From assembly GCA_027488815.1 (NCBI GenBank), contig JAIYAX010000001.1:124001-188000 (forward strand): DNA of 64,000 nt, given 5' to 3'. Source of the stretch: Cytophagaceae bacterium. GTDB taxonomy: Bacteria; Bacteroidota; Bacteroidia; Cytophagales; JAIYAX01. Numbering within the stretch: the first letter of the stretch is position 1; every line of letters begins with the position of its first letter. The notes beneath the pieces were generated by a model. It was not told the DNA's origin and made no database searches. It was given only the letters and a program-made list of their open reading frames with translations. Positions 2,190 through 63,565 of the stretch are shown piece by piece. Position numbers and translations under genes: made by a program.

Positions 2190-2681
2190 TTAGAATACAA
2201 TAATCTCAGTCTGGAAATCTTTTCTGAATGTGGTTTCTCTTAAAAATCTTTGATTTTCTTCATTATCGAAGGCAACAAACTTCTCTAGCTTTTTATTGCA
2301 AGCAAAAACCTTTCTGTTTTTATATTGACTTATATCATGATTCTCCTTAAGGAAATCTATTGTAGATACCAGTTGCTCTAATGCTCCTGATTGCCAAGGT
2401 GGTTTTTGTTCTTTGAGCTCTACTAGATATAAACATTTTGAGTTTGTTAACATGCCATCACACCGTCCTCTGCCAGGGAATTGATGGTCTTGAATCACAC
2501 ATTTATCAATGGCAGTAAAAACTACACCCTCATTACTGCTATTCTTAACAGTTGCTATCCATGTGTTCGGTTTATCAATATTTGTGTATGCAGGTTTCCC
2601 TAGTCTGTCATCGCAAAGCCCAAATTCGCGCTCTACTATTGGCCCTTCTTGACACTTACTATTAAAGAAATCTAAACTCAT
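2190..2681 (-). CDS. PD-(D/E)XK nuclease-like protein partnered with an ATPase
   Basis: A 163-residue protein I do not recognise as a named family. The centre holds RCDGML (D75) followed, about 13 residues later, by a strand reading YLVELKEQK (E88, K90), and then GALEQL. The spacing D...ExK...Q matches the catalytic core of the PD-(D/E)XK nuclease fold, so a metal-dependent nuclease is inferred. Six cysteines (10, 23, 61, 74, 83, 128) are scattered without a clear zinc motif. Its ATG overlaps the stop of the upstream ATPase by 4 bases, which argues for coupled translation and a physical complex. The gene is AT-rich compared with its neighbours. ATPase-nuclease pairs of this shape are commonly antiphage modules. 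It could also be an inactive member of the fold. Confidence 0.6.
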   Translation of the reverse strand: MSLDFFNSKCQEGPIVEREFGLCDDRLGKPAYTNIDKPNTWIATVKNSSNEGVVFTAIDKCVIQDHQFPGRGRCDGMLTNSKCLYLVELKEQKPPWQSGALEQLVSTIDFLKENHDISQYKNRKVFACNKKLEKFVAFDNEENQRFLRETTFRKDFQTEIIVF

Positions 2682-3925
2682 AGTTCTAATTCCTGTTCGA
2701 TTTCAAGTAATTTGTCAAATTCCATGTTGCTTAAACGAATAGTTTGATTTAGGTAGTTTTTATCAGAAGGAATTCCTTCAAAATTCCCAAGTATTTTAAT
2801 AGATCCATTTGTTTCATCTAATTGATAAATAGCTAGTTCTTCCGGATTGATAGTTGATGCTTTTGGCACAACTTCGTAAAGTTGATTTTCATGTTCTTTT
2901 TTTTCAATTCTGTTTTTTAAATCATTTGCTTTAACCGCTAATGAAATAGAGTTTATCAAATACGGACTATGCGTCGTCATCACCAGCATATTATTTCCAT
3001 TGTTAAAAGCCAAAAGGCTATTTATGAGTAATCGCTGGGAAGTCGGAAATAAATTTTGCTCCGGTTCTTCAACAATATTTACAAAATACTTACAAATATA
3101 TTTTCCATTAATCTTCTTTTCATTTATTTTTAATTCTTTTTCATCTTGAATTTCTGCATTAACAGCTCTAAGTTCTTTTTCTCGTCTTATGGTTTGGTCT
3201 GTACTAAGTAATTCTAATAATTTTTTCTCTCCTTGCTTTAAAAACTCTAACAAATATCTTGTCACCCAATAAAGAGGAACAATCGAATGAAAGCCACTTG
3301 AACCCTCAGACAGTTTTAACCTTTTTTCTCCAAACAATAAATAGTTTTCATCTTCTTTAGCATCATACAAGACTTTAGTATTGTTAATTGGTAATTCAAT
3401 TACCTTGCCTTTATTTGAAAGTTGTGCATTTCTGAATTCAACAGAGTAATTTTTCAAACTACCTACTAAAAAATCAGACACTTTATTAATATTGGATACT
3501 GAACTTAAGAAATTCCGCTCAGCAGGCACGTACATTATCTTCGGTAACTTCACCGATTTATTATTCAACCTTTTTGCTTCAACAGTTTTCTTATTATGAC
3601 TACCATTCAATTTTAAACTATATGTTGCTCCCTCGTATTCAATTAGAGAGTCAGATTCTAAATAATTCTCTAGCCTGTGAAATTCAAGTAAATCAATAAA
3701 ATCGTTGTGTGAAACAGGTGCATTAATATCTCCTCTTATTAATGCCTTCTCTAACCAAATAAAGCTAGAAATCAACTTCGCCACCGTACTCTTACCACTC
3801 CCCTGATTACCAATAAACACGGTAACCTTCTTCACCTCTAGCCAATCATTTACAGTGCCATCAGGTAAAGTTTCTTTGAAACCTTCTTTAATAGGTCCAA
3901 AATTCTTTATTCTTATTTTACTCAT
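2678..3925 (-). CDS. ABC/AAA-type ATPase (RecF/OLD-like)
   Basis: A 415-residue ATPase with ABC-type head motifs: Walker A GNQGSGKS (39-46), a YVPAERN element at about 132-138, a signature-like LSEGSSG (205-211), Walker B with D-loop VNIVEEPEQNLFP (282-294) and an H-loop TTHSPYL (317-323). A charged helical stretch at about 228-272 probably forms the short coiled coil seen in this class. No TOPRIM or helicase domain is fused, which separates it from GajA-type and class 1 OLD proteins. It is the first gene of a two-gene operon with the PD-(D/E)XK-like protein, with overlapping stop and start. The region is strikingly AT-rich (14 G/C in bases 3061-3120, against 30 in 7501-7560), consistent with horizontal acquisition. 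A defence role is inferred from architecture only. Confidence 0.8.
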   Translation of the reverse strand: MSKIRIKNFGPIKEGFKETLPDGTVNDWLEVKKVTVFIGNQGSGKSTVAKLISSFIWLEKALIRGDINAPVSHNDFIDLLEFHRLENYLESDSLIEYEGATYSLKLNGSHNKKTVEAKRLNNKSVKLPKIMYVPAERNFLSSVSNINKVSDFLVGSLKNYSVEFRNAQLSNKGKVIELPINNTKVLYDAKEDENYLLFGEKRLKLSEGSSGFHSIVPLYWVTRYLLEFLKQGEKKLLELLSTDQTIRREKELRAVNAEIQDEKELKINEKKINGKYICKYFVNIVEEPEQNLFPTSQRLLINSLLAFNNGNNMLVMTTHSPYLINSISLAVKANDLKNRIEKKEHENQLYEVVPKASTINPEELAIYQLDETNGSIKILGNFEGIPSDKNYLNQTIRLSNMEFDKLLEIEQELEL

Positions 3926-3945
3926 TTTACTTCTATTCGGCTGTT

Positions 3946-3953
3946 CAAAGCTA
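3946..3953 (-). promoter_or_regulatory. Candidate -7 promoter box for the ATPase/nuclease operon
   Basis: Read on the minus strand the bases are TAGCTTTG, an exact match to the Bacteroidota -7 element TAnnTTTG. The predicted start of transcription is near 3939, giving a leader of about 14 bases before the ATPase ATG. No good TTG element is seen 17-23 bases upstream, so this rests on the -7 box and its position. Confidence 0.45.
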
Positions 3954-4043: not shown

Positions 4044-4832
4044 CTACCCCAAAATCTCCCAGTCATTATTAAGACCTTGCAGGGCATAGTGGGCTGTCAT
4101 GTCAAAGGCGCAGGGCACAACGGAGATGTAGTTGTTGGCCAGCGCCCATTCGTCGGTGTCTTCTCCTCTGTCACCATTCACAAAGTTGCCTGCCATCCAG
4201 AAATACCTGCGTCCATAAGGATCAAAGCGCTCCTGAAACTCCTCCTGCCACTTGGCCATGGCTTGCCGGCAGATTTTGACACCCTTTACAGGCTCATTTT
4301 GCTTATGGGGGAAATTGACGTTCAAAGCAACTCCTTTGGGCATGCCCGATTTAAGCACTTGCCTTGCGATGTCTTCTACATGCTGCTCGATATGGTCGAA
4401 CTCTGCATCGTGGCTATAGTCACAAAGGCTGAAACCAATGGCCGGCAATCCTTCGATAGCGGCTTCAATCGCTGCTGACATAGTGCCACTGTATAGCACA
4501 CTGATGGAAGAATTGCTGCCATGGTTGATGCCGCTAACCACAAGATCAGGATTGCGGTCTTTCAGCACATAATGCTTGGCCAGCTTTACGCAATCGGCCG
4601 GAGTACCGCTGCATTCATACGCTTTGATGTCTCCGTAAATGGTATTAGGGTCAAGACGTAAAGTGTTACCTATGGTAATGGCGTGGCCCATGCCACTTTG
4701 CGGGCTATCGGGTGCGACTACGACTACCTCCCCTATCCGTCGCATGATCTTGATCAGTTGCCGAATGCCGGGTGAGGTGATTCCATCATCGTTGCAGACC
4801 AGTATAAGAGGTGTTTTGCTGCTGTCGTTCAT
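4044..4832 (-). CDS. surE: 5'/3'-nucleotidase SurE
   Basis: Metal-dependent phosphatase acting on nucleoside monophosphates, linked to stationary-phase survival. The 262-residue protein has the SurE signature: NDDGITSPGI with metal ligands N14, D15, D16; VAPDSPQSGMGHAIT with Ser46; the YECSGTPADC loop; and SGINHGSN with Asn103 completing the metal site. Length is normal for the family. It is the last gene of a minus-strand series dnaG, ribBA, hypothetical, surE, beginning 9 bases after the stop of the preceding secreted hypothetical, so it is probably cotranscribed with it. Confidence 0.95.
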   Translation of the reverse strand: MNDSSKTPLILVCNDDGITSPGIRQLIKIMRRIGEVVVVAPDSPQSGMGHAITIGNTLRLDPNTIYGDIKAYECSGTPADCVKLAKHYVLKDRNPDLVVSGINHGSNSSISVLYSGTMSAAIEAAIEGLPAIGFSLCDYSHDAEFDHIEQHVEDIARQVLKSGMPKGVALNVNFPHKQNEPVKGVKICRQAMAKWQEEFQERFDPYGRRYFWMAGNFVNGDRGEDTDEWALANNYISVVPCAFDMTAHYALQGLNNDWEILG

Positions 4833-6710: not shown

Positions 6711-8639
6711 TTATCTCCCTGCCACGACAATCCCCAGCTTCCCGGCCAGCTCTTTTTCTGTTTGTTTAAGTTCAAAATGTATCTTTTGATGCAGGTCTGT
6801 CTCTTCCTCAATTTCTGAGCTTTGCAATACTTTTTGATTTTCTTCGATGAGCTTGCGAATATGCTGCCATTTCAATCTAAGTACAGTAGTAACAACCACA
6901 TGAGACAAAATGTCCTGTTCTCTGGGTACTTCGATGTCGTGCTCTTTCCAGGCCTCACTGATTTCATAACGGGAACTGAGTAATTCAATGGCCATTTTGC
7001 GCAAGTCTTCACGCTCATGTGCCATAAAATACGGGCTCAGATCGGTACCCGGCTTTAGCATCGCCTCCGACTGGTAGGCTAACATAAATTCCTGGAATGG
7101 CCCTGCCATAAATGGAACATCCCCTGTTTCTTCAAAAAGGTAATCCACTACAAAACGGCCTTCATCTACGGAAATATGGCCATAGCTGAGCAACAAACGA
7201 CAAATTTCCCGCTCATAGCCACTGCGCAAATCCAGTGCACCGATGATGGGTTGCGGCTGGACATAATCTAATGTGGTGACAGCATTCACCACACCTTCCG
7301 GCAGATCAAGCTCTTTTCGTTGTTTGTCCTCTTTCCGTTTTTTAATCAGCCTTTTGTTAAGCTCAGCGATCAGCACATCTTCAGCCATTTGAAGCTGTAT
7401 GGAGCATTCCTTGAGGTAAACTGCCCTCTTGATGGTGTCGTCAATAAGAGCAATAGAACTCACAATTTCTCCTACAATCTCTGCTTTCTTCAAAGGATCC
7501 TTACCGGCCTCAGCCAGTTTGATTCCCAGCATAAAACTCATGAAGTCCCGAACCTCAACCTGCAAATAGGCCTGAAAAGCATCAGCGCCAACTTTGCGGC
7601 AATAGCTATCAGGATCTTCTCCATCAGGGAAGGTCACCGCCCTGACGTTCAGTCCTTCCTGAAGCAATAGATCTATCCCTCTGAAGCTGGCCTTAATACC
7701 TGCCTGATCTCCATCGTATAACACCGTTACATTATCGGTGTATCGTTTGATGAGTCTGATTTGCTCTTCAGTTAGCGAAGTGCCCGAGGAAGCCACCACG
7801 TTACTTACCCCTGCCTGATGCAGTGTCAGTACATCGGTATAGCCTTCGGTGAGATAGCAATTATCTTTCTGCCTGATTGCCTGCCTCGCTTGAGCTATAC
7901 CATACAGGATGTTCTTTTTATGGTAAAGAAGCGTCTCTGGGGAGTTGAGATACTTGGGTTGATTTTTATCATTGCCCATCATTCTGGCTCCAAAAGCAAT
8001 CACTTTACCGGAGACATTGTGAATTGGGAACATTACCCGACCTCTAAACCGGTCATAAAGCCGGCCATTGCTTTCGCTCAAAAGGCCAGCATTCAATAAG
8101 ATCTGCTCCTGGTATCCTTTGGCCAGGGCTTCCTCATGCAGGGCCTGCCCTGAGGCAGGGCTATAGCCTAGCTGGAATGTTTCGATGGTTTGAGAATTGA
8201 ACCCACGCTCCTTGAAATAGCTTAACCCAATGGACTGACCCTCTTCGGCTTCTTTCAGCTGTGTTTCATAATACCGGCAGGCAAAATTCATAGCGATCAA
8301 TTGCGCTTCACGCTCATTCTGCTCCTGTTGGGCTTCCGAACTTTGCTCTTCTTCTTTGACTTCTATTCCATATTTCTTCCCCAGCGCACGTATGGCTTCC
8401 AGATAGCCCAGCCCTTCAATCTCCATGATAAAGCCGATGGAGTCACCTGATTTGCCACAACCGAAACACTTGAAAATGCCTTTGCTGGGTGAAACTGAAA
8501 AAGAGGGCGATTTCTCCTGATGAAAGGGGCAGCAGGCCCATTGGTTTTGACCTTTGCGCTTCAAACTGACATAGTCTCCTACCACCTCCTCAATCCGGGC
8601 GGTTTCTCTGATCTGATCTATGACCTGCCTGCTTATCAT
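6711..8639 (-). CDS. dnaG: DNA primase DnaG
   Basis: Synthesises RNA primers for lagging-strand replication with DnaB helicase. The 642-residue protein has an N-terminal CHC2 zinc ribbon (C37, H40, C58, C61), the DnaG catalytic core, and a TOPRIM domain recognisable by [15 protein letters not shown] (about 263) and VLYDGDQAG (about 308). The C-terminal third is the variable helicase-interaction region. Length is typical. It is the first gene of the minus-strand series ending with surE and is divergent from mrp. Codon composition resembles the neighbouring core genes. Confidence 0.96.
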
Positions 8640-8773: not shown

Positions 8774-9871
8774 ATGACAATCAGCAAAGAAGCCATCATG
8801 AAGGCCCTCTCCACAGTAGAGGAGCCTGATCTGAAAAAAGACCTGGTAAGCCTGGGGATGATCACCGATCTGCAAGTAGAAGGCAAAGAGGTAAAATTCA
8901 CGGTGATACTTACCACTCCGGCCTGCCCACTGAAAGAACTCATCAAGGAACGTTGCGTGAAAGCCATTCACCAACTCGTTTCTACCGAAGCGATCATCAG
9001 CATCAGCATGACGGACAGGGTAACCAGCAGCAGAACTGCCGGACCTGTGCTGCCCGGTGTTAAAAACATCATCGCCATAGCGTCCGGCAAGGGTGGAGTA
9101 GGCAAATCAACTGTTACAACCAATCTGGCTGTAGCTCTGGCAAGGGCAGGAGCCAAGGTGGGCCTCATTGATGCCGACATCTTTGGACCATCAATCCCGA
9201 CCATGTTCAATGTGGAAATGAGCAGACCGGAAGTCAAAGAGGGCCCGGGTGGCAAGACCATTATAGTGCCCATCGAAATGTATGGAGTGAAAATGATCTC
9301 CATTGGTTTCCTTACCGCTGCTGACGATGCAGTGGTTTGGCGTGGGCCTATGGCCAGCTCAGCCTTGAAGCAGTTTATCAACGACACCGATTGGGGAGAA
9401 CTTGACTACCTGCTCATCGACCTACCTCCGGGTACAAGTGATATCCACCTGACATTGGTTCAAACAGTTCCCGTAACCGGAGCAGTTATCGTCACTACCC
9501 CTCAAAAGGTGGCACTTGCCGATGCAGTTAAAGGATTGAGCATGTTCAGGCAGCCCCAGATCAATGTGCCTGTGCTCGGAGTGATCGAAAACATGGCCTA
9601 TTTTAGCCCTGAGGAGTTACCTGACAACAAATACTACATCTTCGGCAAGGGTGGAGGTCAATGGCTGGCTGATAAGTTTCAGGTGCCTTTGTTGGGTCAA
9701 ATTCCGCTGGTACAAAGCATACGAGAGGCAGGTGATCAAGGCAGTCCTGCAGTACTGAGCCATTCCGTTTCCAGTGAAGCCTTCAGGAGCCTGGCAGAAA
9801 AATTGGCCCAGCAAATTGCCATCAGAAATGCTAACTTTGCTCAAACAGAGCCCGTAGCCATTCGTGTCTGA
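8774..9871 (+). CDS. mrp: Mrp/ApbC family iron-sulfur cluster carrier ATPase
   Basis: P-loop ATPase that carries and delivers Fe-S clusters. An N-terminal MIP18/DUF59 domain (about 1-80, TVEEPDLKKDLVSLGMI) precedes the deviant Walker A SGKGGVGKST at about 104-113 and the ParA/MinD-type core (DADIFGPSIPTMF, LIDLPPGTSDIHLTLVQT, ENMAYFSPEELPDNKYYIF). An upstream in-frame start at 8675 would add 33 residues with no family counterpart. ATG 8774 begins exactly where DUF59 proteins begin (MTISKEAIMKAL), so I chose it. The NifU-like scaffold gene starts 19 bases downstream, and the two form an Fe-S assembly operon. Confidence 0.92.
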   Translation: MTISKEAIMKALSTVEEPDLKKDLVSLGMITDLQVEGKEVKFTVILTTPACPLKELIKERCVKAIHQLVSTEAIISISMTDRVTSSRTAGPVLPGVKNIIAIASGKGGVGKSTVTTNLAVALARAGAKVGLIDADIFGPSIPTMFNVEMSRPEVKEGPGGKTIIVPIEMYGVKMISIGFLTAADDAVVWRGPMASSALKQFINDTDWGELDYLLIDLPPGTSDIHLTLVQTVPVTGAVIVTTPQKVALADAVKGLSMFRQPQINVPVLGVIENMAYFSPEELPDNKYYIFGKGGGQWLADKFQVPLLGQIPLVQSIREAGDQGSPAVLSHSVSSEAFRSLAEKLAQQIAIRNANFAQTEPVAIRV

Positions 9872-9890
9872 AAGCCTCGATCACCATTCC

Positions 9891-10148
9891 ATGAAACCAA
9901 GCATCTCGCAGATCGAAAAAGCAATCGATAGTATACGCCCCTACCTTCTGGCTGATGGAGGTGATGTAAAGGTCCTTGAAGTAGATGAAGAGGGAATTGT
10001 AAAACTAGAATTGCTCGGAAGCTGCAGCAACTGCCGCATGTCTTCGATGACCCTCAAAGCAGGGGTCGAGCAAGCGATCATGCAAGCGGTACCTGAGGTC
10101 ACCTCTGTGGTAGCAATCAACTCTATGGTCGAAAGTAACGCATCCTAA
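9891..10148 (+). CDS. NifU-like C-terminal domain Fe-S scaffold protein
   Basis: An 85-residue NifU C-terminal-type domain, the class that assembles and transfers [4Fe-4S] clusters. The diagnostic LLGSCSNCRMS stretch holds the CxxC pair C45 and C48, and YLLADGGDVKVLEV precedes it in the usual place. ATG 9891 is chosen over an in-frame GTG at 9864, which would overlap the mrp stop and add nine unrelated residues. Next to mrp, a joint role in cluster biogenesis is well supported by family knowledge. Confidence 0.92.
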   Translation: MKPSISQIEKAIDSIRPYLLADGGDVKVLEVDEEGIVKLELLGSCSNCRMSSMTLKAGVEQAIMQAVPEVTSVVAINSMVESNAS

Positions 10149-10164
10149 AAATCAAGTAAATCAG

Positions 10165-12303
10165 ATGAGAAAACTGATCATTCTATCTTTCTTTTGCCTC
10201 CTTGTATCTTTAGCCGGAGCTCAGGACTCACTGAATATGCGTCGAAATGCTGTTTGGGCATTTAGTGGCGCCACCGCATATAATGACTGCTGGGGATATG
10301 CTGCCAATGGACGTGAGTATGCCATTCTCGGAAGTAACTGGGGCACTCATTTTCTGGACATCACCAATCCTGAGCAGCCTGTTGTAGTTGGTAATTTCAT
10401 CGGGAAAACCAGCAATGTGATTTGGCGGGATTTTGATACCTACGGCCACTATGCCTACGGGGTAGCTGATGGAGCTCCAAACTCACTGCAAATATTTGAC
10501 CTTCAATACTTGCCGGACTCGGTGGTAAAAGTGTACGACAATGACTCGTTAACCAGAAGTGCCCATACCATGTACATCAATGGTAACCGACTTTATCTTT
10601 CCTCAAATACCAGAGGGCTTAATTTTTATTCAATGGAGATCCTCAGTATTGCCAATCCTACCGCACCAACGTTGCTTGGAACATTAAATAATGGAGGGCT
10701 CTTCAATGAAACGCACGACTTGTATGCAGTCAGAGATACTGTGTTTTTCTCCGGTGGAGCTGGAGGGACTTCAGGAGGGGGTTTGTTTATCTATGACTAT
10801 CGAAATCCTTCTGCTCCGGTATTGATCAGCAGTATTACCAGTTATCCGGAGAAAGGCTATAACCACAGCAACTGGGTAAATGCAAATAGAACTAAACTGG
10901 TATTTGCTGATGAAACGCATGGATCCGGACTTAAACTCTATGACATCAGCAACATCACTAACCCTGTTCTGCAAGGTGTCTTCCGATCAAACACCGGGGC
11001 AATAGCTCATAACCCTTATATCAGAGGTGACAGCGTGTATATCTCATATTACCATGATGGAGTACGAGTTTTTAGCATCGCAGACTCTTCAAACATTTCA
11101 CAAGTAGCCTATTATGACACCTATCCGGGCAATGTCGGCTATCCTGGTTTCCAAGGCGTTTGGAGTGTGTATCCTTACCTTCCTTCCAAAAGAATCCTGG
11201 CATCTGATATGTCCACAGGACTGCATATACTCACCCTGCTACCGGTAACGACCAAACCACAGGTCAACTTTAACATCAATTCGGTAGAAGGCTGTGGACC
11301 TTACAAAGTCAACTTGTTTAACGGCACAGTGAATGCAGCATCCTATCAATGGAAGTTATTGCTTGGAGGAAATCAGGTGAGTACTTTCTCCGGACAAAAC
11401 CCAAGCATCACCCTAAGTAATCCGGGCAATTATCAACTTCGCCTGGTGGCTACAAATTCTATTGGCACCGACTCGATCACACAAAATCTTTCCGTTGGCC
11501 AGCAAAGTGCTATTCCGGTTCCATCAATAGTGACTTTCAACAACAACCCGTTACCGGTTTGTCTGGAACGAAAAGCCAACTCAGACATTCTTGTCTCTCC
11601 AAATACAGGCTTACTCAGCACCCCGGCCCTTGAATTCAGAGGCGGGGAAGGAACCAATTTTGTTACGGGGCTCAATTGCCAATCCACCTTTACTGCCAAT
11701 CCTGACTATGTCGCTAAGGCAGGTTTAAGAGTCAATGTGCAAAACCTCAATTCGCTCAGTATGATTTATTACCTGCGATTTGAAAATCTAAACTCTGCCC
11801 CGGACCCTAGCAAAAGCAATTTCAGAATTAAAGTGAACGGGCAACTGACAGGGGTTTGTGACCGAAGCCAAAGCCAAAGCTATTTGTCAAATACTCTGGA
11901 CCTAAGCCCTTATCTATCTGACCCTGGCGACACCCTTTACATCGAATTTGAAGCCGCCAACCGGTTTTTCCGACCTGCCAATTTTATTTTCGATCGAATT
12001 TATTTGGAGAACCTCAATTTTTCCGGAACGCTGAATACCGAAAATACCCTTTTGCCTGCCGTACAAGTGGATCTGTTCCCCAATCCGGCTTCAGGGACCG
12101 TCACCCTACAGTGTACCGGAGATCGTAGCCAATCCATACCTTCCTATAAGTTGTATGACCTTCAAGGCCGTGCTTTAATGGAAGGGATGGTTGATCAGGA
12201 TCGAAAAGAGCTATCTGTGGATCATCTGGCGAATGGCATGTACCTGATAGAAATCGTTTGGGGCAGTCGCCTGGAACAAAAGACATTAATGATCCAGAAG
12301 TAA
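10165..12303 (+). CDS. Choice-of-anchor B family secreted protein with T9SS type A sorting domain
   Basis: A 712-residue exported protein. A signal peptide (IILSFFCLLVSLAGAQ) leads into about 350 residues of LVIVD-like beta-propeller repeats (HFLDITNPEQPVVVG, LQIFDLQYLPDSV, LKLYDISNITNPVLQG), the pattern of the choice-of-anchor B family. A PKD-like domain follows at about 370-445 (FNINSVEGCGPYKVNLFNG), then a jelly-roll-like module. The C-terminal 75 residues have VDLFPNPASGTVTLQ, LYDLQGR and NGMYLIEI, the type A sorting signal that routes cargo through the type IX secretion system. It probably ends up surface-attached or released. It lies 16 bases after the NifU-like gene and 16 bases before the ligase gene, but shows no functional link to either. 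Confidence 0.88.
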   Translation: MRKLIILSFFCLLVSLAGAQDSLNMRRNAVWAFSGATAYNDCWGYAANGREYAILGSNWGTHFLDITNPEQPVVVGNFIGKTSNVIWRDFDTYGHYAYGVADGAPNSLQIFDLQYLPDSVVKVYDNDSLTRSAHTMYINGNRLYLSSNTRGLNFYSMEILSIANPTAPTLLGTLNNGGLFNETHDLYAVRDTVFFSGGAGGTSGGGLFIYDYRNPSAPVLISSITSYPEKGYNHSNWVNANRTKLVFADETHGSGLKLYDISNITNPVLQGVFRSNTGAIAHNPYIRGDSVYISYYHDGVRVFSIADSSNISQVAYYDTYPGNVGYPGFQGVWSVYPYLPSKRILASDMSTGLHILTLLPVTTKPQVNFNINSVEGCGPYKVNLFNGTVNAASYQWKLLLGGNQVSTFSGQNPSITLSNPGNYQLRLVATNSIGTDSITQNLSVGQQSAIPVPSIVTFNNNPLPVCLERKANSDILVSPNTGLLSTPALEFRGGEGTNFVTGLNCQSTFTANPDYVAKAGLRVNVQNLNSLSMIYYLRFENLNSAPDPSKSNFRIKVNGQLTGVCDRSQSQSYLSNTLDLSPYLSDPGDTLYIEFEAANRFFRPANFIFDRIYLENLNFSGTLNTENTLLPAVQVDLFPNPASGTVTLQCTGDRSQSIPSYKLYDLQGRALMEGMVDQDRKELSVDHLANGMYLIEIVWGSRLEQKTLMIQK

Positions 12304-12319: not shown

Positions 12320-14992
12320 ATGTTGAAAGTTGGCGTTTTCTTTGGAGGCTCCTCACGGGAGCGTGAGGTTTCCTTTGCAGGAGGCCGTACGGTAATCGAT
12401 AACCTCGACAAAAGGCTTTTTGAGGCAGTTCCTATTTTTGTTGACAGTCAGAACCGTTTCATATTGCTTGACTGGCATTTCTTGTACAAGGGCACCATCA
12501 GGGATTTTTATCCGGCTCCTGACCTCCTCTCCGGTTCAGGTTTTCAGATGTACATTGAGTCTCTACAGGATCAACCCCATCTGATAAGTCAATCCATTAG
12601 TCGTATCGGAAAGCTAATAAGCCCTGAAGAGTTCAGCAGCTTGTTCGACCTGGCTTTTCTTGCCTTACATGGACCTTTTGGTGAAGACGGCAACCTTCAA
12701 GGTCTGCTGGAGTGGTATGAAATCCCTTACACGGGGTCCGGGGTTTTTTCATCAGCCTTGGGCCTTTCAAAAACCATACAGGCTGACCTTCAAAAGGGTC
12801 TTGGCCTGAGAGCTGTTTCCTATAAAAAACTGTATCGTTCCGAACTTGAAAGTCGCTCCCTAAGTAACATCTGGCAGGAGGTTAAACAAGAAATTGGCCT
12901 GCCCTGTGTGGTCAAGGCCTCAAGCCAGGGATCATCTATCGGAGTGAGTATCGTTGAACATGAGGATGAGAAAGCCTTTGAAAAGGCTGTCAGAAAGGCC
13001 TTCTTCGAGGAGCTTATCGACTCTGCAGAATGGCAAAAACGTAGTTCTCAGGAAAAAACAAACTACGTGCGGCGGCTAGCTGACATCCGAGATGGCCTGG
13101 GTATGCCTGTCCGGCTGGAAGGAAGGCTTATCCTCAGACCTGAACAGTTGCTTGCAGCAATCGATCAGGAAAGTAAAATCAAATCAGAACTGATACTGCA
13201 AAGTGAACACCCCGAGCAAGTCATTCTCATAGAAGCATTCATTCCGGGTAAAGAGTTTTCCTGCATTGTCATCAGCGATGAACTAGGTCATCCTCTGGCT
13301 TTGCCTCCTACAGAAATTATCAAACGCAGTCAGGTGTTTGATTATCGGGCAAAGTATCTGCCGGGAATTTCCCGAAAGGTGACCCCAATCGAAACCGATG
13401 AGAAACACATCGAAGCCATCCGGAAAGCCTGCGAACAGCTTTATCTGGCCTTTCAATTTGAAGTGTACGCAAGGATTGATGGCTTTCTGAAGCCTGATGG
13501 CACCATCATACTGAATGACCCCAACACCACGTCCGGTATGATGCCTTCTTCTTTCTTTTTTCACCAGGCGGCTGAGATCGGGCTCAACCCATCCCAGTTC
13601 CTCACCTATATCATGCATCATTCTTTGCTGGCCAGAAGGAGAAGTGGCAGGTACAGCAACCGCTTATTGCCGGTACTGAACCAATTTGAGCAAAACCTGA
13701 AAGCCTCTGTATCCGCCAGAGATGAGCGTGTTCCGGTGGCAGTGATCATGGGAGGCTATTCTGCTGAGCGACATATCAGCGTGGAGAGCGGCCGAAACGT
13801 GTATGAAAAGCTTTCTTCATCGGGCAAGTACCTGCCCTACCCGATTTTCCTCAGTGGAAATGCGGATTCCTTTGAGCTTCACTTGCTTCCGATCAATGTG
13901 ATGCTCAAGGACAACGCTGATGATATCCGGGAAAAAGTTCATTCCACGCAATCCAAACACCCAGTCGTGAAACGAATAGTTGAGCAAAGTGCAGGAACGG
14001 CTCAGCTTTACAGGGGCGATTTTCTTGAATATCCCAAAAGGATCAGTCTTGCTGAGCTTGCAGAAACAGTCGACTTCGTATTTATCGCATTGCATGGCCG
14101 ACCTGGCGAAGATGGGGCATTGCAAACAAAACTGGAGCAGTTTGGAATTCCATACAATGGCTCTGGTGTAAAAAGCTCATCTACGACCATAAACAAATAC
14201 CTGAGCAATGAGATTTTAGCACAATCAGGAGTACCTGTAGCCAGTCACTTGTGGCTCACCAAGGAGCAGTGGCTTACTAACTCTCAGTCATTTTATGAAC
14301 AGGCCGAACAAGCTCTTGGCTACCCGATGATCTTAAAACCTGCTGATGACGGATGCAGCGCCGCTGTAAAAAAGATTAAAAACAGGGAAGAGTTCAAAGC
14401 CTTTGCAAGCCTCATTTTCAGACAAACAGAAGCCCTTTCTGAGTCCGAGGCCAACATCTTAAAACTAGCTCCTCAGGAAGAGTTCCCGATCAAACAAGGT
14501 CTCCTTGCGGAGCGATTTATCGATGCGGGGGGAGCCTCCCATTTTCTTGAAATCACAGGTGGTTTTGTGAGTGAATGGCTCAATGGAGAATCCCATTACC
14601 GTTTTTTTGAACCCTCTGAAGTGCTGGCCACAGGGGAAGTGTTATCCCTCGAAGAAAAATTTTTGGCCGGCGAAGGACAAAACATCACCCCTGCCCGCTT
14701 TGATCCTGACCCTGCAAAACGTGACCGGATCGCTGAAAAGGTAAAAAAGGATCTGGAAAAAACTGCCCGCCTGCTTTCTGTTGAAGGCTATGGTCGAATC
14801 GATGCATTTGTCCGTATCTTCCCTGACGAAATGGTGGAGACAATAATCATTGAAATCAACTCGTTACCTGGAATGACCCCGGCGACCTGTATATTTCACC
14901 AATGCGCTTTGGATGGGCTAAGTCCCTTTCAGTTCATTGATGAAATCATCCGTTATGGCATTCAACGAAAAGCTGTTCTGAGTCTTGAGTAA
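12320..14992 (+). CDS. ddl: Tandem (double-module) D-alanine--D-alanine ligase
   Basis: D-Ala-D-Ala ligases (about 310-350 residues) make the dipeptide ending of peptidoglycan precursors. This 890-residue protein holds two ATP-grasp ligase modules in tandem. Module 1 (about 1-440) has GGSSREREVS, HGPFGEDG (117-124), GSSIGVS (204-210), the substrate-loop YRAKYLPG (342-349) and ARIDGF...LNDPNTTSG (384-406), where the usual EIN metal-binding triplet reads DPN. Module 2 (about 471-890) has GGYSAERHIS, HGRPGEDG (592-599) and a canonical GRIDAF...EINSLPGMTPAT, but the Ser loop is GCSAAVK (678-684) and the tyrosine of the substrate loop is Phe. Each module therefore lacks a different canonical feature. 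No internal stop or frameshift is seen. It overlaps the PASTA gene by 8 bases. Confidence 0.88.
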   Translation: MLKVGVFFGGSSREREVSFAGGRTVIDNLDKRLFEAVPIFVDSQNRFILLDWHFLYKGTIRDFYPAPDLLSGSGFQMYIESLQDQPHLISQSISRIGKLISPEEFSSLFDLAFLALHGPFGEDGNLQGLLEWYEIPYTGSGVFSSALGLSKTIQADLQKGLGLRAVSYKKLYRSELESRSLSNIWQEVKQEIGLPCVVKASSQGSSIGVSIVEHEDEKAFEKAVRKAFFEELIDSAEWQKRSSQEKTNYVRRLADIRDGLGMPVRLEGRLILRPEQLLAAIDQESKIKSELILQSEHPEQVILIEAFIPGKEFSCIVISDELGHPLALPPTEIIKRSQVFDYRAKYLPGISRKVTPIETDEKHIEAIRKACEQLYLAFQFEVYARIDGFLKPDGTIILNDPNTTSGMMPSSFFFHQAAEIGLNPSQFLTYIMHHSLLARRRSGRYSNRLLPVLNQFEQNLKASVSARDERVPVAVIMGGYSAERHISVESGRNVYEKLSSSGKYLPYPIFLSGNADSFELHLLPINVMLKDNADDIREKVHSTQSKHPVVKRIVEQSAGTAQLYRGDFLEYPKRISLAELAETVDFVFIALHGRPGEDGALQTKLEQFGIPYNGSGVKSSSTTINKYLSNEILAQSGVPVASHLWLTKEQWLTNSQSFYEQAEQALGYPMILKPADDGCSAAVKKIKNREEFKAFASLIFRQTEALSESEANILKLAPQEEFPIKQGLLAERFIDAGGASHFLEITGGFVSEWLNGESHYRFFEPSEVLATGEVLSLEEKFLAGEGQNITPARFDPDPAKRDRIAEKVKKDLEKTARLLSVEGYGRIDAFVRIFPDEMVETIIIEINSLPGMTPATCIFHQCALDGLSPFQFIDEIIRYGIQRKAVLSLE

Positions 14993-61532: not shown

Positions 61533-62243
61533 TTAGTCAGGTGAATAGGAATACCAATCAATAAGCTCTCTTAGCCGTTTGACTAAAACATGAACTGTTG
61601 TGCTTGGATTAGCGTCAATCGGTTGTTTACCTTTTTGTTCGGCTAGAAGTTTTTCGGCTCGTTCAATTGCCTTTACTTCACTCCCTAATTTAACAAGTGC
61701 ATCAATTACTTCCGCCTTACCATGCTGATAAACAAATAGCTTATGGGTCTCAAATGATTTTATTACAGTTTGAAGACTTGAATAAATGTCTGCTCTTGGA
61801 ATTGGGTTTGTGGAACTGACATCAATAAAATGAAGCAACAGCCATAATTCAAAGACTTCGTTGCTAAATGCAATGTTTATTTTTTCTTGCCTAGCTAGAG
61901 CCCATGCCGAATTAAAACTTTCCAAAGTAGTTGCAGTATTCCCTTCGTCGTCTTTGTCGAAAACAACCCAAACTTCATCAATTGTTTTTTTTGCCTCAGC
62001 AGACAAGATTTCTCTTTCATTTATTGTTTGCTCAACAATACCCTTAGGTTTTTTACCGGTTCCTATCTCTCTCAAATACACCGTTTCCTCGGGAAACATC
62101 TTCTTAAATTGTCTAAAATAGGTAGGTTCCGTGTTTTGGTCTTCGCAAACTATAAGTATAAACATATCATACCTCTTTGGTCTGAAAGGTCTGATGTTTT
62201 CATCTTTTGATTTCGTCTTTTTTAATGTTCCTCTTCTTGCCAT
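61533..62243 (-). CDS. rloB: RloB-like TOPRIM-type protein
   Basis: A 236-residue protein of the RloB family as I recognise it: a basic N-terminus, then LIVCEDQNTEPTYFRQF (about 30-46) with the TOPRIM-like Glu, DEVWVVFDKDDEGN (89-102) carrying the DxD-type acidic pair, and FSNEVFELWLLLHF (126-139). These elements resemble the metal site of TOPRIM nucleases. It overlaps the upstream ATPase gene by 22 bases. RloA/RloB pairs were first noted next to restriction-modification genes, and similar ATPase-RloB pairs occur in abortive-infection modules (AbiL, from memory). No restriction genes are adjacent here. Confidence 0.85.
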   Translation of the reverse strand: MARRGTLKKTKSKDENIRPFRPKRYDMFILIVCEDQNTEPTYFRQFKKMFPEETVYLREIGTGKKPKGIVEQTINEREILSAEAKKTIDEVWVVFDKDDEGNTATTLESFNSAWALARQEKINIAFSNEVFELWLLLHFIDVSSTNPIPRADIYSSLQTVIKSFETHKLFVYQHGKAEVIDALVKLGSEVKAIERAEKLLAEQKGKQPIDANPSTTVHVLVKRLRELIDWYSYSPD

Positions 62244-63565
62244 TGGGTATTGCGAATAAATTTTTGAAAATTACCCAATGCAGGGATTGATCCATATCTG
62301 CCTTCAAAATAGCGTTTCTCTTTGTCGGTGTCAGGTCTTTCTTTTTCAGATTTGAACTCTCCGTTTTGCTCACCGAAATAAACAAAGTCAGAAAGTGAGT
62401 ATATTTCAGTGCTTTCCCATTTGTTTTTTTCCGCAAAACAAATTTGGTCTCGTCTAAGATTTGAATAACTCAATAGGTTCGTGTCATGAGTTGCAAAAAT
62501 CAATTGTGCATTATTAGGATTACTGCTTTTGTTTAAGAATACATCAATTGTATTCAACGTCATTACAGGATGCAGTTTGGCTTCAATTTCATCAATGATA
62601 AGAACGCCCCCGTTAGCTAACGCCCATAAAACAGGCCCACTTAATTGAAATGCTTTTTTTGCTCCCGATGATTCTTTGTCTTCCCATTTCCAACTATGTG
62701 TTTTGTCAGTTGGTAAAGCATTAGCATCATAGATGCGATGCTTAGCAAAGACTGTATAAATCTGTTTGCCTTTGAGTGTCTTTGCTAATCTAGATTTCAT
62801 GTTTTTAGGCAAGTCGTCTGGTAATTCGGATTCTTCAAAATCCTGTGTTGTTACATCAACATCAACTATATTTAGACTTAATGATGCTAAGTATTGCCTA
62901 ATCTTTTCTCTATATTCTTTTTCCTCCCAAAGTTCAACTGTTTGGATTTCTTCCATCTCTGTGTTTAGCCCGTCAACCATACTAAAATGTCTAAACCATT
63001 GCATTATACTTTTAGCTTCTTCAACATTTAACATGTCGCAAGTAGAAAGAAACAATGCATTAATTCTTGTTGCTTCAATTGCAGCATCAATGATTTTTTT
63101 TGAGCCATTGTAGCCTGAACTTACATCAATAGTTTCTCCCTCTCTTTCAAATAAATTGACTTCTCTTCCTGCTGATTTACGAAACAACCATTCCTTTTTT
63201 ATTTCACTTGCAGTAAACTCTAATCCGTAGCGATAACGATTATCCTCAATCACGAAAGAGATTTCAAATCCTGTTGGTTTGTCCTCCCAACCTTCTCTTA
63301 ATAAAAAAGGGTCGTAAGGCAAACGGGTAGTTGAAGATGTTCTTGCAGAAACATGAACCAATCTGTCTAAAAGGCTCATAGCTTTTAGAATGTTTGATTT
63401 TCCTCCGCCATTTGGGCCATATAACGATATAGCGTTTAACGCTTGATATCGTCCTTTAGTGACAATGTTTTGAAGATGGTCTTTTTGTTTAGGTGCAGGG
63501 ATTAAACTCATTGTCTGCTCGTCACCGATTGACCTGTAGTTGGAAACTTTAAATTCAAGCAACAT
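62222..63565 (-). CDS. rloA: RloA-like AAA/ABC-type ATPase
   Basis: A 447-residue ATPase: FKVSNYRSIGDEQTMSLIP at the N-terminus (the RecF/SMC-like opening), Walker A GPNGGGKSN (50-58), an inserted helical region with FRHFSMVDGLN, a signature-like SSGAKKAFQLSG (299-310), Walker B and D-loop GGVLIIDEIEAKLHP (319-333) and H-loop FATHDTNLL (357-365). It is the first gene of a two-gene operon with rloB. The gene is less GC-rich than the comEC-side genes (19 G/C in bases 62461-62520). A defence role is inferred from the pair. Confidence 0.88.
   Translation of the reverse strand: MLLEFKVSNYRSIGDEQTMSLIPAPKQKDHLQNIVTKGRYQALNAISLYGPNGGGKSNILKAMSLLDRLVHVSARTSSTTRLPYDPFLLREGWEDKPTGFEISFVIEDNRYRYGLEFTASEIKKEWLFRKSAGREVNLFEREGETIDVSSGYNGSKKIIDAAIEATRINALFLSTCDMLNVEEAKSIMQWFRHFSMVDGLNTEMEEIQTVELWEEKEYREKIRQYLASLSLNIVDVDVTTQDFEESELPDDLPKNMKSRLAKTLKGKQIYTVFAKHRIYDANALPTDKTHSWKWEDKESSGAKKAFQLSGPVLWALANGGVLIIDEIEAKLHPVMTLNTIDVFLNKSSNPNNAQLIFATHDTNLLSYSNLRRDQICFAEKNKWESTEIYSLSDFVYFGEQNGEFKSEKERPDTDKEKRYFEGRYGSIPALGNFQKFIRNTQWQEEEH

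Follow-up and report, generated by a model that had tools for sequence, protein, structure and literature searches.

The nearest functionally tested design to the locus described here is WonAB (WASA OLD-ABC ATPase Nuclease), a two-gene system first found in Vibrio and carried mainly by Gram-negative hosts of diverse classes, which encodes an OLD-type ABC ATPase and a 16-kDa PD-(D/E)xK nuclease and requires both ATP hydrolysis and the nuclease lysine (PMC12137116). WonAB acts by abortive infection, arresting translation while chromosomal DNA stays intact, and rRNA or tRNA has been proposed by its authors as the target (PMC12137116). WonB is predicted to dock on the dimerised C-terminal extensions of WonA, and a simple sequestration model of the toxin-antitoxin kind has been ruled out (PMC12137116). 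Its authors place the system in a wider family that pairs ABC-ATPase sensors with nucleases, as kin of PD-T4-4 and of an operon of Krishnan et al. 2020; the latter is given as an in-silico "OLD-ABC ATPase + Novel REase" operon, and such operons vary in their insert and C-terminal regions, some with a distinct nuclease (PMC12137116). In PrrC, encoded within a type IC restriction locus, inhibition of that locus is answered with tRNA cleavage (PMC12707154).

A comparable arrangement is found in the window, meaning the whole 64,000-nucleotide stretch of Cytophagaceae bacterium DNA analysed here. The first gene (2678..3925, minus strand) encodes PDC-M29A, hereafter A, an ABC/AAA_15 ATPase of 415 amino acids and putative infection sensor, assigned from PADLOC, Pfam and a structure model. 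The second (2190..2681, minus strand) encodes PDC-M29B, hereafter B, a putative PD-(D/E)XK nuclease of 163 amino acids whose core of D59, D75, E88-x-K90 and Q103 was defined from PADLOC, an alignment and a model. The two reading frames share the four bases ATGA (2678..2681, minus strand), an overlap that likely reflects translational coupling. A carries a Walker A motif (GNQGSGKS, residues 39-46), a signature motif (LSEGSSG, 205-211), the segment VNIVEEPEQNLFP (282-294, with Walker B at 282-290) and TTHSPYL (317-323, including H319). Both genes, their overlap, these motifs and residues D75, E88 and K90 of the partner are exactly as the preliminary description of the locus had reported them.

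Searches against PADLOC-DB 2.0.0, in which PDC-M29 is represented by models PDLC04562/04563/04564, matched A to PDC-M29A with 434.5 bits (E 1.2e-130; residues 1-412 on model positions 1-409 of 410) and B to PDC-M29B with 230 bits (residues 3-162 on positions 1-160 of 162). The remaining PADLOC ATPase models all scored below 57 bits against A, that of PD-T4-4_A matching at 2e-9, while B showed a similarity to Cas4_II at 7.9e-5 over residues 59-147. With both models matched over their full length, in the same order and on the same strand, profile comparison establishes that the pair belongs to PDC-M29. Within the family the window ATPase is divergent, scoring 434 bits where most others reach 558-634, and has close relatives at loci L081-L083; the nuclease is a typical one. 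The preliminary description had held that the cassette fits no defence system and that an assignment by PADLOC would count against its proposal; such an assignment now exists, to a class of unpublished candidates (PMC11811056). PDC-M29 is not named in the literature searched, in which no experiment on any of its members was found. Pfam returned only AAA_15/AAA_21 over cut-off for A and nothing over cut-off for B, NCBIfam held no fitting model for either protein, and a sequence search of the PDB gave no relative of A or B. Pfam and PADLOC detected no TOPRIM or DUF4435 match in either protein, in keeping with the earlier statement that the ATPase lacks a fused TOPRIM, and Pfam, PADLOC and NCBIfam detected no PtuB or HNH match in B.

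The base composition of the cassette sets it apart from its surroundings. Its G+C content of 32.5% compares with a mean of 44.2% across the window (s.d. 3.0% among stretches of 1.7 kb), and when the whole window was scanned in stretches of this length, values as low occurred at only 5 of 1246 positions, all around the cassette. Third-position G+C is 26-29% in the cassette genes and 49-57% in lepB, surE and dnaG. The sharp drop noted earlier is accurate: 14 of 60 bases are G or C at 3061-3120 and 30 of 60 at 7501-7560, and the cassette is the lowest-G+C stretch of the window. Upstream, on the same strand, a surE-like gene ends at 4044; downstream, a convergent lepB-like gene ends at 1949. Judged by eye from the list of open reading frames, the flanking genes resemble dapB and lepB beyond the nuclease gene and surE, ribBA and dnaG beyond the ATPase gene. 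The cassette stands alone between housekeeping genes, as had been observed, with no restriction genes adjoining it. Around the cassette, the search for direct or inverted repeats marking an insertion yielded just short, chance-like pairs, and no tRNA was found nearby. The single shared promoter once suggested fares less well: a Bacteroidota-type -7 element, TAGCTTTG, is indeed present at 3946..3953 (minus strand), lying 20 bases upstream of the ATPase start and accounting for the earlier drawing of the cassette end at 3953, but the window holds 45 copies of this octamer, a number that does not exceed chance expectation, and a sigma-70 scan returned fewer sites than expected by chance. The element is a candidate only, and the cassette promoter remains a guess. 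Elsewhere in the window, at 61533-63565 (minus strand), lies a second low-G+C ATPase-effector pair, consisting of a 447-aa ATPase and a 236-aa partner, which matches PADLOC AbiLi (276 bits) and AbiLii (94 bits), of the RloA/RloB type.

Conservation across genomes, which the preliminary description had left to be checked, is borne out. When 395 genomes of the phylum were searched by profile, 18 had B and 19 had A, two sets that coincide but for a few genomes. Outside this genome, A stands directly upstream of B on the same strand in 30 loci, 20 of them with the identical 4-base overlap, and this recurrence indicates that the pairing is more than chance. The alignment of B shows no substitution at D59, E88 or K90, either D or E at position 75 in every row and near-invariance at Q103, which upholds the PD-(D/E)XK-like core proposed for the partner; in A, the residues of the Walker A, signature, Walker B and H-loop motifs do not vary among 24 aligned sequences. 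Within one genus the ATPase is present in 11 of 65 genomes, with pairs at several different sites, and degraded copies occur at three loci (L036, L046 and L057). Such patchy presence, several sites and degraded copies fit the usual behaviour of defence genes. Searches of 50,697 phage records and of IMG/VR yielded nothing matching B, and plasmids yielded one match. On viral and plasmid contigs, more distant ATPases are followed by a small open reading frame with a C-D/E ... E-x-K pattern, most of these frames scoring below the nuclease profile, and the pair thus seems to be part of a larger class.

Several relatives stand in restriction loci. Five genomes encode HsdR no further than about 3 kb from the pair, four of one genus (G241, G371, G386 and G167) and one of another family (G300); a type I methyltransferase is also present at L044 and L050, and a specificity subunit at L041. 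In two lineages the gene order is hsdM-hsdS-[A-B]-hsdR, placing the pair inside or against the type I locus, and a Persicobacter plasmid carries the pair immediately ahead of genes for a type III methyltransferase and restriction enzyme. Since the four associations within one genus may represent one event, the independent associations number about three. Together with the patchy, multi-site presence in one genus, these relatives make it likely that the pair is a defence system. Macro-domain-like proteins are encoded near the pair in two families, at L050 11133-11573 (DarG, 223 bits) and, by eye, at L032 7180-7647.

The two genes of the window appear to differ in ancestry. Family-wide, the similarities of A and of B correlate, with r 0.86 when the window pair is left out; for the window pair r is 0.04. 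The ATPase body (residues 1-330) groups with L081-L083 (support 100/100), and the nuclease groups with L011, L012 and L047 (support 99/97). A tree holding the ATPase clade together with the nuclease's neighbours was rejected (AU p 0.003; 0.02 without long rows), the groups in these tests having been defined with the trees already known, and a nuclease clade including L081/L082, a long branch, was not formally rejected (p 0.07). The best reading of these trees is that the ATPase and the nuclease of the window pair come from different branches, with sensor and effector apparently exchanged between lineages. Exchange of the ATPase C-terminus along with the nuclease, hinted at by a breakpoint scan, is unsupported because the C-terminal 72 residues leave L081-L083 (AU p 0.048) but join L050 and not the clade of the nuclease. 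Among the close relatives, the pairs at L081 2209-4043 and L082 8198-10032 have ATPases 67-68% identical to that of the window, and their nuclease partner is longer (about 205 aa) and only 23% identical, keeping the D/E...E-x-K pattern. L083 carries an orphan PDC-M29A (9168-10421), 68% identical to the window ATPase and not followed by a nuclease; close to it lie a second, divergent pair of the M29-like kind (12793-14572) and what by eye resembles a DNA methyltransferase gene.

Structure prediction, for which the plasmid row was left out of the inputs, produced a confident model of B (pLDDT 90.9, pTM 0.89). In this model D75 lies just before one strand, E88 and K90 end the next strand, and a long helix with Q103 comes after, the strand-strand-helix order that is usual in PD-(D/E)XK enzymes. 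Fold matches were weak. Foldseek gave nothing significant (best E 0.22), and in VIA-align, where every Z was below 8, the top rows were McrC with Z 5.9 and 5.6 (best over 106 residues, rmsd 3.6), followed lower down by FokI (4.7), EndoMS (4.4) and Can2, with Rab GTPases mixed in at similar Z. McrC, FokI, EndoMS and Can2 are PD-(D/E)XK nucleases. B therefore likely, though not provenly, adopts this fold, an assignment based mainly on its motifs, in view of the Foldseek result and the low Z, and on its predicted secondary-structure order and weak fold matches. The model of A (pLDDT 89.3) matches PtuA of Septu and retron complexes (Z 17-19, the best over 288 residues) and Rad50 (Z 17.6).

The most probable interpretation, favoured with some reserve, is that the cassette was acquired horizontally and is a two-gene system of the PDC-M29 type, acting by abortive infection in the manner of WonAB. 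A would dimerise head to tail around ATP, as the heads of Rad50 and PtuA do, acting as infection sensor and licenser of B. A phage cue would set off the ATP cycle of A and thereby activate B, whose D75/E88/K90 site would then cleave nucleic acid. The substrate would more probably be tRNA or rRNA of the cell than its chromosome, so that translation and phage production would stop and the infection would be aborted. The A-B complex, the RNA target, the trigger and the abortive outcome are drawn by analogy with WonAB.

A DNA-targeting defence, in which A would load or activate B on phage DNA in the manner of Septu/PtuAB or McrBC, leading to degradation of the invading DNA, is rather unlikely but has the stronger case among the alternatives. 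PtuA and Rad50, the closest solved folds of A, act on DNA, McrC, the highest-Z match of B, is a DNA nuclease, and type I or type III restriction genes adjoin some relatives. Fold similarity, however, does not tell DNA from RNA as a substrate, and WonAB spares genomic DNA and halts translation (PMC12137116).

A PDC-M29A-like ATPase also occurs in a cyanophage. Microcystis phage Mic1 (L084, MN013189.1) encodes an ATPase 38-41% identical to A, with its motifs intact, and this lone ATPase adjoins an RNA ligase gene (L084 1718-2737 and 3001-4239); a search without positive control found no homologue of B in the 92-kb Mic1 record. An ATPase decoy combined with repair by the ligase would make a possible counter-defence. 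In a wider and doubtful version of this idea, PDC-M29 would be a PrrC-like sentinel that guards restriction-modification or senses phage takeover and frees a tRNA- or rRNA-cutting nuclease, countered by the phage through its orphan-ATPase decoy and RNA-mending ligase.

Orphan ATPases, in L083 and in Mic1, can equally be cited for a function outside defence, the pair being a toxin-antitoxin or DNA-repair module kept by addiction or repair, as can the coupling of a small nuclease to its partner in one operon and the Rad50-like fold of A. This explanation is improbable: the scatter of the pair over about 5% of the phylum's genomes and over several sites in a single genus, its low G+C, the broken copies and the restriction neighbours are all better accounted for by defence, and toxin-antitoxin sequestration is excluded for WonAB (PMC12137116). 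Least probable is a guardian role, in which A would monitor a restriction enzyme and free B when a phage inhibits restriction, for although the pair lies in or against a type I locus in two lineages and once beside a type III system, and PrrC, in its type IC locus, cleaves tRNA upon inhibition (PMC12707154), most copies, that of the window included, have no neighbouring restriction genes, the placement may reflect defence-island shuffling only, and PrrC is a single chain as opposed to two genes here.

Returning to the abortive-infection reading, comparison with known systems shows where the cassette stands. Like PrrC and RloC, it would place a nuclease under the control of an ABC ATPase, and some of its relatives share with PrrC a position in a type I restriction locus; in PrrC and RloC, however, nuclease and ATPase form one chain, whereas here they are separate genes, with the window copy outside any restriction locus. 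Gabija, OLD and PARIS differ in relying on a TOPRIM, fused or as a DUF4435 partner, which is absent from A and B. Septu (PtuAB) and retron PtuAB offer the closest solved fold of A and likewise combine an ATPase with a small nuclease in two genes, but PtuB is an HNH nuclease, while B has D/E75-E88-x-K90 instead. PD-T4-4 (Vassallo et al. 2022) and the Krishnan operon are also operons of an ATPase with a restriction-fold nuclease. The likeness to WonAB is one of design: a two-gene operon, an OLD-type ABC ATPase without TOPRIM and a small single-domain PD-(D/E)xK partner with a catalytic lysine (putative here), WonB measuring about 16 kDa against the 163 amino acids of B. As WonAB is published and tested (PMC12137116) and PDC-M29 is catalogued, the design is already known, and the suggestion that the architecture may be undescribed does not hold. 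What the locus adds is comparative support for a catalogued candidate, in the form of operon conservation, invariant catalytic residues and restriction neighbours in relatives. Its apparent nuclease exchange between ATPase branches bears on the modularity of sensor and effector, the phage-borne lone ATPase beside an RNA ligase bears on counter-defence, and PDC-M29 itself is tied to the ATPase-plus-PD-(D/E)XK class in which WonAB was studied.
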